Shown piece by piece: positions 47,599 to 52,420 of a stretch of DNA of 52,545 nucleotides. The stretch is from Acidobacteriota bacterium (GTDB lineage Bacteria > Acidobacteriota > Terriglobia > Terriglobales > Acidobacteriaceae), in NCBI GenBank assembly GCA_003225055.1, contig QIAU01000158.1:1-52545 (forward strand), in the 5' to 3' direction. The position numbers and the translations under genes are program-made. Every line of letters starts with the position of its first letter. Positions within the stretch are counted from its first letter, which is position 1. The notes under the pieces are model-generated. The model was not told the origin of the DNA. It saw only the letters and a program-made list of their open reading frames with translations, and did no database searches.

Positions 47599-49488
47599 TT
47601 ATAGCAGGCCGGCGGATTGCATCGCAGTCTTTAACTGCTGAAAGGCCAGCAGCCACATGCTCTCGGGTAACTGCCCGCTCGCCCACGGTCCCGGCCCAGC
47701 ACCCCAGATAGGAGCATAGGGGAAGGGCTGACCGCTCGCGGCTGGCGCGTAGCCCCCAAAGGGAGCCGCGGCAAAGTAGGGCGCTCCCCGAGATTGAAGC
47801 CCGTGTGAGACCTCAGGAAATGCTGCCATCGTCCTGCCCACCTCCGCCGGCAGAAACGCCCGGGTCGCATCCGGCAATCCAGCCCCGGTGCGCATCGGGT
47901 CGCCCAGATTCAAGGGCTGACCGCATTGGCGAATGATCTGGAAAAGCCGATCCACTCGCTGAAGATTACGAGCGCCAAACATGCCCTGCGCCTGGAAGTC
48001 CGGATGATGGGCCAAGATTAGGGCGGCGAGGCCGGAAATATGGGCGGCGGCAACGGCCGTACTATCCCATGCCGCGAAGTTGTCCGGTGGAGCGGAGGAG
48101 ACGACCGCCACCCCGGGCGCACAAACGGCAATTGATGGGCCGAAACAAGTGAAGTTTGGAGAAAAGAAGCCTTGAGGGGTAAGCGGCGGCCTGGCTGTCA
48201 GGGCGTGATAGCTATCCGGCGGAAACTCCCCTTGCTTCCCGATTGCGGCAACGGCAAGCACGTTGGGAGACGAGGCCGGATACTGCACCGGGCCACCGGA
48301 GTTTCCTGCTGCGGCAATGCAAGCTATGCCCATTTGTGTGGCTTGGAAAATCTTCTGCTCAATGATCGCAGAGGGTTCAGCGGCACCCAGGCTCAAATTT
48401 ATGACATCCGCTCGCTGGCCAATGCAGAACTCGAGTGCGTCCAATAAGCTGCTATATCGGCCACCCGGGAAAAGCTTGCATACGATTATCTCAGCTTCTG
48501 GGGCAAAACCCCGCATGCCCTCGCTATTCTCTGCATTCCCGGCAATAATGCCTGCGCAGTGCGTTCCATGTCCGATGGCGTCTTCTTCCCAGCCTTCCTG
48601 GCTCTTGGCTACAACGTCATAACCGGCCTTTACCTGTCTTTTGATACTCCTGTGCGTGGTGGCCGCGCCCGAATCGATAATCGCGACCTTGACTCCTTTA
48701 CCCCGAAACGCGGAGGGAACGCTATCCAGGTGCATTGCCCTCTGGCCCCATCCAATGAACTGCTGAGAGGAGAAGTTCGGAAGGGTTGCGCCTAGATCCT
48801 TAAGCGAAATGACGTTCGGACCCTCGGGATTGAGAGTCGGCTGAGGTACCCAAATGCTCCAGAAATCCGACTGCGGTTTCACGTAGACGGCATGAATAGT
48901 GCTCGGTGATTCCCCAATCACATTCAATTCCACTCGACCCTGGCGCCCGGTCACACCCTGTGTGGGGAAAAGACTGCCAAAGATACGGACCAGAGCGCCT
49001 TCGACCGGGCCGTCGTCTCCCATTACCGTAATGTTGATGGTGAATCCGTTGGCTTGATTAAACCCGCCGGCATCCAACGGCAACGACGGTACTGCCGTAT
49101 GCGCGTAGGTAAGCGCATGATCTCGCTCGACGATCACTTGGTAGCCACCCTCCTGAGCCAACCGCGCCGCTTTGTCTTCCCGCATGCGTGCCACAATGAC
49201 ACGCTGCGATCCTGACCTGCCGTTGCCGAACGCGCCCGTAGCGCTGCGCGGGGTCAGGACGTCGACCACCTGCACTTCCGGGTCGCTCCTCAGATTTTGC
49301 TCAAGCAAATCAAGTCCAGCCAAGGGATGGACGCCGGGCACGGGTCTTGTAGAAATCAGGAATTGCCCCATGCGCGAGCTGAGTACATTATCCCCTTCGG
49401 GGGAACCGCCGCGTTCGCGGGTTGCTTTTTCTCCCGATGACCTGCCGGCCGACGTCTTACTCTCCTGTTCTTCTCTTTTCGATGGCAT
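47599..49488 (-). CDS. Subtilisin-fold (S8) protein lacking the catalytic serine
   Basis: This 629-residue protein has no signal peptide. Residues 1-40 are polar, about 40-135 an inhibitor-I9-like or unique region (MGQFLISTRPVPG), about 148-215 an Ig-like beta region, and about 245-545 the S8 domain. Asp272 (VAIIDSGA), His307 (GHGTHCAG) and oxyanion Asn396 (AAAGNSGGP) are kept. At the GTSMAxPH motif the protein reads DSTAVAAAHISG, so the position of the nucleophile Ser is Ala478 (codon GCC). Hydrolysis by the normal mechanism is therefore not expected. The tail (about 550-629) is rich in Ala, Pro, Gly and aromatics. AAGGAG precedes the ATG. Confidence 0.88.
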   Translation of the reverse strand: MPSKREEQESKTSAGRSSGEKATRERGGSPEGDNVLSSRMGQFLISTRPVPGVHPLAGLDLLEQNLRSDPEVQVVDVLTPRSATGAFGNGRSGSQRVIVARMREDKAARLAQEGGYQVIVERDHALTYAHTAVPSLPLDAGGFNQANGFTINITVMGDDGPVEGALVRIFGSLFPTQGVTGRQGRVELNVIGESPSTIHAVYVKPQSDFWSIWVPQPTLNPEGPNVISLKDLGATLPNFSSQQFIGWGQRAMHLDSVPSAFRGKGVKVAIIDSGAATTHRSIKRQVKAGYDVVAKSQEGWEEDAIGHGTHCAGIIAGNAENSEGMRGFAPEAEIIVCKLFPGGRYSSLLDALEFCIGQRADVINLSLGAAEPSAIIEQKIFQATQMGIACIAAAGNSGGPVQYPASSPNVLAVAAIGKQGEFPPDSYHALTARPPLTPQGFFSPNFTCFGPSIAVCAPGVAVVSSAPPDNFAAWDSTAVAAAHISGLAALILAHHPDFQAQGMFGARNLQRVDRLFQIIRQCGQPLNLGDPMRTGAGLPDATRAFLPAEVGRTMAAFPEVSHGLQSRGAPYFAAAPFGGYAPAASGQPFPYAPIWGAGPGPWASGQLPESMWLLAFQQLKTAMQSAGLL

Positions 49489-49809: not shown

Positions 49810-50265
49810 TTAGTAGTGGCCAAAAGGAGTTCCCCAGGGACTCCCCAACGAACCCAAACCTCCTATTGGATTTTGGAACAATCCGCTTTGCAAAGGAGTG
49901 TACGGGTTTTGGCCGATTATGCTCCCCAGTTGCGGCTGCACTCCAAAGGGCGTGATGTGCGGAACCTGCATCAGTGAGCCACTCTGCAAGAGCAGAGGAA
50001 GGATGCGGGTAACGATGGTTGCAACCTCGTACGGGTTCACCGTCGGAGGAATGAACTGCGGCTGACCGTAGGGATAGCCGAGCGGACCCTGTTGGCCCAG
50101 CCATTGCCCCACTCCGGCAATTGGCCCTTGCAGACCAAACGGCGACTGTTGGCCAAAAGGAGAGGCAAATGGAACCTGGCCGAGTCCGCCACCTAGGCCG
50201 AACTGACCGAACTGTGGTTGCGGGGTTCCCAAAGAAGTGAATGGTTGCTGGAACGGCTGGTGCAT
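49810..50265 (-). CDS. Pro/Gly/Phe/Gln-rich low-complexity protein
   Basis: ATG 50265 follows AAGGAG at seven bases, supporting a real gene of 151 residues. The sequence is built from FGQ, PFG, GLG and QQ-like units (PQFGQFGLGGGLGQ, SPFGQQSPFGLQG, IGGLGSLGSPWG). One non-repetitive stretch, VNPYEVATIVTRILPLLLQ, could form an amphipathic helix. There is no signal peptide, Cys or recognised domain. It lies directly upstream of the pseudo-subtilase gene on the same strand, whose own tail has similar Pro/Gly/aromatic composition, suggesting a shared assembly or partner. Function is unknown. Confidence 0.75.
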   Translation of the reverse strand: MHQPFQQPFTSLGTPQPQFGQFGLGGGLGQVPFASPFGQQSPFGLQGPIAGVGQWLGQQGPLGYPYGQPQFIPPTVNPYEVATIVTRILPLLLQSGSLMQVPHITPFGVQPQLGSIIGQNPYTPLQSGLFQNPIGGLGSLGSPWGTPFGHY

Positions 50266-50557
50266 AGAAACTCCTTTTCAATTCGGCTGGCGCTTACGCG
50301 CCAGGAAAAACTTTCGTGTGGATAGATGGATGTTTACTTCGGTTATCGGTTAACTGGATGACAGGCTTGACGACAACCGTACAAGCTAGCTTTTTTGATT
50401 GGCGCGCTCAAGAACCGTATAACTATGGGGCGAACAAATTCAAGCCCCAACAAGAACTTTCTTGTGGATTTTCCTGAAGATTTGCACGCTGGCACGATTA
50501 GTGCCAACCCTGCGATGAAGGGATCGGGTATTCACTGTAGAAGGGATGAAATATTCA
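50266..50557. promoter_or_regulatory. Upstream region of the pseudo-subtilase cluster
   Basis: No gene is seen. A perfect inverted repeat TGGCAC-GATTA-GTGCCA lies at 50490-50506. It could be an operator, and its spacing (GG-N10-GC) loosely resembles a sigma-54 promoter in either direction, although the -12 element is not TTGC. A second stem, TGGCGC/GCGCCA, lies at about 50285-50300. Confidence 0.35.
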
Positions 50558-51880
50558 CTAATGGATGAAGTCGAAGATCGACCAAAGATCGCCCAGCCGG
50601 TTCTCGATCGGGGTGCCGGTCAGGGCGAACCGAACGGCCGCGTTTAGCTTCTTTACCGCTTGTGTCTGTTTGGCAGCAGGGTTCTTGATAGCTTGCGCTT
50701 CGTCAAGCACTAACAAGTTCCACGAGACATCGGCAATCCAGGGAAGGCGGAGCAGAGAGCCGTAGCTGGTGATCACGACATCCACGGTTCGCAGTTGATC
50801 CGGCGTCATGGACTTGAGATCGTTGGCGGACATCTCGGAAGGATGCGCGACGATTGCGTTCAAACTCGGTGCGAAGCGTTCGAGTTGCGCCGCCCAGTTG
50901 GCTAACAGCGAAGCGGGCGCGACCAAAAGACTCGGGCGCCGAATGCCATCCGACTGCTGACGAAGGACGAGCAGCAAGGCCAAAACCTGAATCGTCTTGC
51001 CCAGTCCCATGTCATCGGCAAGACACGCGCCGAGGCCGAGTTTCGCAAGCAGATACAGCCACTGCACCCCGACTTGCTGATAAGGACGCAGCGTTCCCTT
51101 CAGCGCTGATCCGGGATCGACTCGCGTCAAGCCCTCCTGGCTGCGCAGGCCTTTCAGCGTTTCCGCGAGCCAGGGGCCGGCGATAACCTGCGCCCATTCC
51201 ACTCGTGCAGCGTCAGAATCTCCATCGACCGTGCCGTCGGCGCCAGCCAACATGCGCATGGCTTCTTGAAAGCTGATGCGTTGCTCAGCGACTCTACGCT
51301 CAATCTCGCCAAAGCGAGCGAGCGTTCGGTTCAATCGCTCGGCGTCGAAAATCGAGCAGCACATCCCGCCCCAGTCCCGATGGAGGCTTACCACCCAATG
51401 TGGCCGTTACCTGCGGGCGGGGAGGGCGATTTCCTGGCAAGACCGCCGGCATGCGCACGACTACCCCGGCACTCTCTAGTTGCGGGACATCGAGCAAGAG
51501 CTGCATCGCCTGTGTTGGCATCCAGCGCAGAGGGTGGAAGATCTCTCCCGCGTCAGCCATGGCCTTCAGCCAGGGACAACTTTCGGCCGCTCGCTGCACA
51601 GGAAGAAGCAGAGAGAGCAAGCGCGCGCGATTAGACGCACCAGCGCACTCGCGCAGCGCCTGGCCAAGCGGCACATGCTGAGCCTTAGCATGTGCCGAAA
51701 GCCGCGTCGTGTAGGTAGCAAGAAAGGCAAAGGGCGTGGCTTCGTCCTTGCGGTTTTCGGCAAGGTTGAAATGGACGCGGCCGATCAGGTTCCAGGCCGA
51801 ATTACGCCGCTTCAGAAATTCCTCAACCCCGCATTTCGCTTCCGACAATTCGGCACAAAATGCTCAGTCCAACGCATGCC
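50558..51880 (-). pseudogene. SNF2-family helicase, truncated and frameshifted
   Basis: The upstream frame (51300-51848) encodes the SNF2-associated N-terminal region of bacterial helicases (GRVHFNLAENRKDEATPFAF, PLGQALRECAGA, GVVVRMPAVLPGNRPPRPQV, GLGRDVLLDFR). After a frame change and an apparent loss of about 40 residues a second frame gives LNRTLARFGEIERR, LRPYQQVGVQWLYLL, Walker A DDMGLGKT, LVAPASLLANW, the DEAQ box and LTGTPIENRLGDLWSIFDF, then stops. The whole C-terminal helicase lobe (motifs V and VI) is missing, so translocase activity is excluded. Confidence 0.88.
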
Positions 51881-52159: not shown

Positions 52160-52420
52160 ATGGCCACACTGCAGGGCAGTCACACGGTCGGCGCGTACGA
52201 GGCAAAAACGCATTTATCGGAACTGCTGGAAAAGGTTGAGGCTGGCGAGGAAATCACGATCACGAAACATGGGGCACCTGTGGCCAAGCTCGTGCCCGTG
52301 AAAAAGGAAGTAAGACCAGAGGAGCGCGTCGCCGCCATTGATCGGATCCAGAAGCTGGCCACTGGTTTGTCCTTAGGTGCATTGAAGGTCAAGGACCTCA
52401 TTAGGGAGGGCCGCCGATGA
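52160..52420 (+). CDS. Phd/YefM-type antitoxin
   Basis: The 86-residue protein has the Phd/YefM DNA-binding fold: VGAYEAKTHLSELLEKVEAG then EEITITKHGAPVAKLVPV, with a C-terminal tail (AAIDRIQKLATGLSLGALKV then KDLIREGRR) that would bind and neutralise the toxin. AGAGGAA precedes the ATG. The toxin gene overlaps its stop by four bases (ATGA), the usual tight coupling. The upstream palindrome (52121-52145) is the likely autoregulatory site. Confidence 0.93.
   Translation: MATLQGSHTVGAYEAKTHLSELLEKVEAGEEITITKHGAPVAKLVPVKKEVRPEERVAAIDRIQKLATGLSLGALKVKDLIREGRR

Follow-up and report, generated by a model that had tools for sequence, protein, structure and literature searches.

The gene P0001, in a stretch of 52,545 nucleotides from an Acidobacteriota bacterium (the window, that is, the whole stretch of DNA analysed here), encodes a subtilase with Ala in place of its nucleophile serine. 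Our preferred explanation, to which we give a probability of about 0.5, is that P0001 is a pseudo-subtilase which forms the second gene of a cassette and binds the charge-depleted protein encoded upstream, or helps it assemble, without cleaving it. By homology and fold it belongs to peptidase family S8 (Pfam score of 134 bits, cut-off 21.8; structural match at Z 41.8, rmsd 1.5, 265 residues aligned), but it does not qualify as an active S8 peptidase, as Asp272 and His307 are present and Ser is replaced by Ala478. Judged from its sequence, it is highly probable that P0001 is not a working protease; it is probably a dead enzyme kept for another job, putatively binding, and its predicted features are best read as those of a binding or scaffold protein. 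The active-site loss together with the selection on its relatives points to a pseudoprotease in the functional sense, of which P0001 would be a putative case, and the functional unit appears to comprise at least two genes, P0002 and then P0001 (Table 1).

Table 1. Features of the putative two-gene cassette in the window
Feature	Position	Strand	Evidence
Predicted pseudo-subtilase gene P0001, 629 aa, ATG start	47599..49488	minus	ORF, S8 domain, family relatives
AAGGAG ribosome-binding site of P0001	49497..49502	minus	from sequence
Ala478 codon GCC at the nucleophile position	48055..48057	minus	alignments and codon reading
S8 domain, residues 263-500	47989..48702	minus	Pfam Peptidase_S8 134 bits; pLDDT 87.3; Z 41.8
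Prodomain-like region, residues 38-132	49093..49377	minus	strand-helix order (low-confidence model), conservation across 18 family rows
Beta-rich linker domain, residues 147-215	48844..49050	minus	strands in low-confidence model
Pro/Gly/aromatic tail, residues 545-629, ending LKTAMQSAGLL	47602..47856	minus	similar ends in relatives
Upstream partner gene P0002, 151 aa, Q/G/P/F-rich	49810..50265	minus	composition, position; AAAAGGAG before its ATG

The best solved relatives of P0001 by sequence are those of subtilisin BPN', and in the printed alignment the motif around the nucleophile pairs without a gap (sgtsmasph in subtilisin, DSTAVAAAH in P0001), so that Ala478 falls on the catalytic Ser, which we take to be number 221, and Ser476 on the Gly two residues before it. 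Asp272 (GAT), His307 (CAT) and Asn396 (AAC) are kept, as is the SLG segment of the substrate groove (366-368), while codon 478 reads GCC. We aligned the S8 domain in 54 rows, consisting of P0001, two Streptomyces family members, 50 viral S8 domains (taken from 80 viral loci fetched) and one Micromonospora protein. The rows outside the family had been found by tblastn or by patterns around Asp and His, none of them via Ser, so the serine was not selected for in the viral rows. The nucleophile column holds Ser in all 51 rows outside the family, and Ala in both Streptomyces family rows. Moreover, P0001 departs from the other 53 rows at position 476 (Ser versus Gly in 53), 479 (Val versus Met in 43) and 482 (Ala versus Pro in 51), which makes a lone sequencing error unlikely. 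The sequence-only reading, which had claimed a full-length gene with a ribosome-binding site, a nucleophile Ser replaced by Ala with Asp, His and Asn kept, and a C-terminal tail rich in Pro, Gly and aromatic residues, is borne out on all these points by the gapless subtilisin alignment, the columns of the 54 rows, the codons and the open reading frame, and its residue numbers for the catalytic positions are correct; it named no strand, and the gene lies on the minus strand.

Peptidase_S8 is the single Pfam domain found in P0001. The model of residues 236-545, built from the 54-row alignment, has a mean pLDDT of 87.3 and a pTM of 0.90. In the modelled site, Asp272 closes a strand, His307 opens a helix, and Ala478 lies near the start of a long helix (242-259 in the model, residues 477-494); the equivalent long helix bears the catalytic Ser in subtilisin. 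The best solved chains for this model are subtilisin variants, with the match given above, and pro-forms of Tk-subtilisin carrying a Ser-to-Ala replacement match it at Z 39.9-40.3; among the 50 structure matches listed there are subtilisins only, and the absence of Csp proteins there carries no weight. Since the model matches subtilisin so well, the predicted fold is without visible damage and no other Ser takes over the nucleophile place. The alignment with active relatives and the model of the site, both of which had been proposed along with the original claim, agree on Ala478. The N-terminal domains are named tentatively, since the whole-protein model, built from four rows and used for secondary structure only, reached a pLDDT of 37.8. 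The region of residues 38-132 has no Pfam match and is called prodomain-like because its order of strands and helices resembles that of a subtilisin prodomain; the linker domain gives sub-threshold Ig-like and CarboxypepD_reg matches in the relatives L077 and L079 only. The same low-confidence model predicts a helix at residues 609-625 of the tail. C-terminal ends of the AGL type, like that of P0001, are present in the first L077 gene (L077a) and in L104-L110, and were not seen among the inspected ends of the 12-member dead clade described below.

Peptide patterns from P0001 alone retrieved no close relative in genome_contigs or viral_contigs, and none of the 53 records with S8 matches in the phage collection covered 80% of it. 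A tblastn search of plasmids found two genes of Streptomyces whose products are 36-37% identical to P0001 across 84-85% of its length, both without the nucleophile Ser (DGTAIAAAH and DGTTIAAAH). With a family profile built from these three genes, complete members in five genomes or records scored 1014-1127 bits, two partial matches scored 727 and 154, and all others were below 100. Family members were detected in at least 9 of 150 genomes of the genus Streptomyces, in at least 9 of 246 of its class (including G566, also in the genus set) and in at least 1 of 246 of its phylum (again G566). The phylum of the window gave at least 2 of 396, namely the window itself and a distant relative with an intact catalytic set, which scored 184 bits. 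These counts are lower bounds, because three to eight candidates per genome were scored in the wide searches. No further carrier at a family-level score was found among 200 genomes of the window's family and 396 of its phylum, nor any member in the other genome of its genus, and the window's own genome holds no second member at E 1e-30 (37 of 37 candidates scored). Two Streptomyces genomes were scored in full, and there the family members with a readable nucleophile position have Ala. Members are scattered thinly over genomes and also occur on plasmids, which suggests that they move horizontally.

For comparison across the family we used 22 rows with flanking DNA, one for the window and 21 taken from plasmids of Streptomyces and from genomes of its class. 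L041, L047, L050 and L092 are duplicates of L039, and L048, L053 and L091 are identical or nearly identical to L042; L043 stands outside the 22 rows, its S8 gene ending at the contig edge. In addition, a further fragment in G710 is a broken copy, in which the family sequence runs out beside undetermined bases. The nucleophile Ser is replaced by Ala, Thr or Gly in 13 of the 22 rows, 14 have a broken catalytic set and 8 are intact. In the order Asp-His-Asn-Ser, the set reads D-H-N-A in the window, D-H-D-A in L039, L042 and L103, D-H-D-T in L040, G-S/T-D-G in the eight rows of the Gly clade (L078-L085), where all four residues are replaced, D-R-D-S in L106, and D-H-N-S in eight rows (L077 twice, L104, L105 and L107-L110); six more distant relatives are also intact. 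L106 (6161-8113, minus strand) presents a second route to loss, in which Arg stands for His and Asp for Asn, while Ser is kept and the small third gene described below is present. The family therefore forms a series of grades on a single fold, from the complete set of four residues, through loss of the nucleophile only, of His together with Asn, or of Asn together with the nucleophile, to loss of all four. Together with a recurring odd partner gene, this series lets one ask when and why a protease gives up cutting and is nonetheless retained.

On the tree, the 12 Streptomyces-type rows without Ser form one clade (support 99/96, and 94/97 with the active-site columns masked), and L106 falls within a clade (100/100) whose other members are intact. 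The window gene is placed outside these, weakly beside L077a, and its branch is long, at 1.08-1.3 changes per column. At the minimum, three changes of state are needed, and the starred branches force two. A single origin of the window gene and the 12-member dead clade is not rejected (p-AU 0.177), a result for which the program warns of long branches meeting; the tree for this test and for the masked columns was built without L086-L090. According to the Nei-Gojobori method (own script), dN/dS is 0.23-0.40 in the Gly clade (28 pairs), 0.21-0.28 in the Ala/Thr clade (6 pairs) and 0.32-0.46 in one intact clade (6 pairs). By this measure the Streptomyces dead clades are under purifying selection at least as strict as that on the intact clade, a result that covers those clades, the window gene having no close relative for comparison.

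P0002, 321 bases upstream of P0001 on the same strand, consists of 55% Q, G, P and F, and its share of charged residues, 1.3%, is the lowest among the 119 mechanical ORFs of at least 100 aa in the window (median 22%). Genes of similar composition recur in the relatives: 11 of the 12 Streptomyces-type members without Ser were read and have a Q-rich gene upstream with 1.5-4.6% charged residues, L106 has one with no charged residues, and seven intact members have A/G/Q/P-rich ones with 3.1-5.1%. In this composition table, L083 is excluded for a misread frame (it counts in the scan below), and the rows of L080, L082, L084, L103 and L104 begin one or a few residues off the start codon. We also scanned blindly for stretches of 100 residues that contain no more than five charged ones. 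In 21 of the 22 family loci such a charge-depleted frame precedes the S8 gene on its own strand at a distance of up to 800 bp, the exception being L077a, whose low-complexity frame is broken by a run of N; around 6 distant relatives there is none. Conservation of the neighbours of homologues had been put forward as a check by the sequence-only reading, and a neighbour of this kind does recur. The scan also responds to other frames, some of them lying within several S8 genes of the family and of the window's own genome; in one case, ahead of the own-genome S8 gene L003, what it hits is by coordinates the adjacent S8 gene of L001. It is supportive, non-specific evidence. Because the partner proteins are weakly alike in sequence across the loci, the link between P0001 and its partner rests on composition and position, and we consider a functional link between P0001 and P0002 somewhat probable. 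In L043 (5451-7699, plus strand), two different Q-rich genes stand in tandem before one S8 gene without Ser, one resembling the partners of the Gly clade and the other those of the Ala/Thr clade. As to the surroundings of P0002 in the window, a perfect hairpin-like sequence, CTGGCGCGTAAGCGCCAG, is located at 50287-50304, a short way upstream. An SNF2-type helicase remnant lies at 50558-51848 (minus strand), with its DUF3670 part and SNF2 domain in different frames; the SNF2 match breaks off immediately ahead of the cassette, having reached position 179 of the 290 in the profile. Near the contig end, an ORF at 52160-52420 (plus strand) has by eye the look of a Phd/YefM-type antitoxin.

A third gene, of 92-123 aa, lies between the partner and the S8 gene at eight loci (the second gene of L077 and L104-L110), and a weaker copy precedes the first L077 gene. 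Its profile matches in 8 of 8 genomes with Ser-bearing members, including G1175, the source of the His-less L106, and in 0 of 11 genomes with Ser-less members, the window's included; there is also no match in G451, which holds the distant intact relative only. These searches scored 150 of 160-253 candidates per Actinomycetes genome and all candidates in G000 and G451, and an HMM of the small protein found nothing in the six frames of the window. The presence of Ser and of the small gene agree in 22 of 22 rows, which on the tree amounts to one or two independent contrasts and carries no significance; it suggests that the small protein goes together with cutting. Other small frames are found beside intact members as well. 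Those at L104:8502-8759 (minus strand) and L077:6073-6531 (plus strand) resemble a free-standing family prodomain (E 0.0038 and 8e-5, respectively), and such stand-alone frames may possibly encode separate propeptide inhibitors. Furthermore, an 80-81-aa protein, propeptide-like by eye, directly follows the intact distant relatives in L086 (4148-4390), L090 (4140-4385) and L089 (3994-4239), which sit on Rhizobium, Pararhizobium and Paracoccus plasmids.

Taking the cassette as a whole, we assume that P0001, in which no signal peptide is seen by eye, would be cytoplasmic and would remain one chain, because it could not remove its own prodomain. Its groove and tail might bind the Q/G/P-rich P0002 protein or one of its peptides and leave it uncut, and P0001 could then serve as an assembly, solubility or holding factor, while the intact relatives with the third small gene would cut where P0001 only holds. 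The proposal that a non-cleaving subtilisin fold would be a binding or scaffold protein is favoured by the confident fold model, the missing nucleophile, the purifying selection on dead relatives and the recurring type of neighbour, the lack of activity being predicted. Several points count against this explanation: the 321-base spacing, with co-transcription of P0001 and P0002 putative; the window gene, which keeps the tail and is without the small gene; its long branch; and the one or two contrasts between Ser and the small gene. A wider version, that the cassette moves between bacteria and that a subtilase which once served a charge-free low-complexity protein has repeatedly become an assembly factor for it that no longer cuts, is possible and on balance doubtful. 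If true, it would describe a protease-derived scaffold or condensate system of which the cutting (three-gene) and the holding (two-gene) versions are both in circulation.

We weighed four other explanations. P0001 may have been inactivated recently and be decaying in one genome, with the Streptomyces dead clades a separate story; a single copy on a long branch, and no other carrier at a family-level score in 200 genomes of its family, 396 of its phylum and the one other genome of its genus, would fit this. However, the reading frame is full-length with a ribosome-binding site, the fold is predicted at high confidence, Asp, His, Asn and SLG are kept and the dead relatives are under purifying selection, so that we find decay rather unlikely. 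Nor is it probable that P0001 has remained a hydrolase in which Ser476, or some other residue, serves as the nucleophile. Although Asp, His and the oxyanion Asn are kept, the motif is gap-free, the column of Ser476 is Gly in all 53 other rows, the model begins the catalytic-serine helix at residue 477, and in the dead relatives position 476 is Gly while 478 is Ala, Thr or Gly; the chance of such an activity is very small indeed.

The remaining two explanations accept a dead enzyme and give it a different job. A sensor or receptor that signals on binding a small ligand, either in its dead site or at the prodomain interface, with the upstream protein as its target or matrix, would have a precedent in CspC, which according to excerpts of PMC6636752 senses germinants with Gly and Thr in its triad and an uncleaved prodomain, and the Gly clade has Gly with Ser or Thr at the corresponding places. 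On the other hand, no active family partner was found in the window's genome, whereas CspC works with the protease CspB. The same excerpts describe a jelly-roll insertion of about 130 residues in the Csp subtilase domain, for which there is no room in the S8 domain of P0001, because the alignment with subtilisin 1-274 takes 265 of the 310 modelled residues. The CspC model scores 25.9 bits versus a cut-off of 675 and the CspBA model 41.3 versus 1250, and we judge this role unlikely. The inhibitor-like decoy that had been suggested from the sequence, occupying the substrates, inhibitors or propeptides of an active subtilase, agrees with the kept groove residues and with the other S8 genes in the window's genome (eight Pfam matches in all), but it is weakened for targets of the same family, of which the genome has no second member and for which the readable members of the two fully scored Streptomyces genomes likewise have Ala. 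The other S8 genes are distant, three (L002, L003 and L007) having no blastp match at 1e-10; these and L008 are left out of the own-genome triad table. We judge the decoy role unlikely as a whole, with an unrelated subtilase as its possible target.

With regard to known systems, P0001 was also compared with named subtilase types. The type VII secretion mycosin model gives 129.8 bits (cut-off 278.75), the PatA/PatG cyanobactin protease 30 (421.05) and the anti-phage subtilase IteS of NCBIfam 15.5 (900), with 20.7 for IetS of PADLOC, where no cut-off is given; for defence systems in general there are generic or sub-cut-off matches only. Dead subtilases are already known, those of bacteria in the literature found being mainly the Csp proteins of C. 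difficile, and among the titles and abstract beginnings listed from the open-licence literature we found no such family, charge-poor pairing or graded series described. The role that a protein rich in glutamine and glycine and nearly devoid of charge plays in a bacterium is a further question raised by the family. The intact sisters (L077, L104, L105 and L107-L110) share with P0001 the length class, 39-45% identity and the low-complexity gene upstream, and differ from it by the full Asp-His-Asn-Ser set and the small gene between partner and S8 gene. Pro-S324A Tk-subtilisin has, going by the structure titles, the same single replacement on the same fold; those are laboratory mutants, whereas P0001 is a natural protein with a partner gene. 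MamO of magnetotactic bacteria is not a subtilase and stands in a different context. It is alike as a bacterial protease kept for another job, being reportedly a repurposed serine protease with a degenerate triad (PMC4794232). The closest known logic is that of CspC of Clostridioides difficile, a dead subtilase acting in germinant sensing, in which, as far as the excerpts of PMC6636752 go, Gly stands for Ser and Thr for His, Asp is kept and the prodomain stays uncleaved. P0001 shares with CspC and CspA the subtilisin-like fold with a prodomain and a degenerate triad, and the Gly clade carries its substitutions at the same places as CspC; the window gene differs in having lost Ser only, in lacking the jelly-roll, in scoring far under the Csp cut-offs, and in having as its neighbour a charge-poor low-complexity gene where CspC has a Csp protease.
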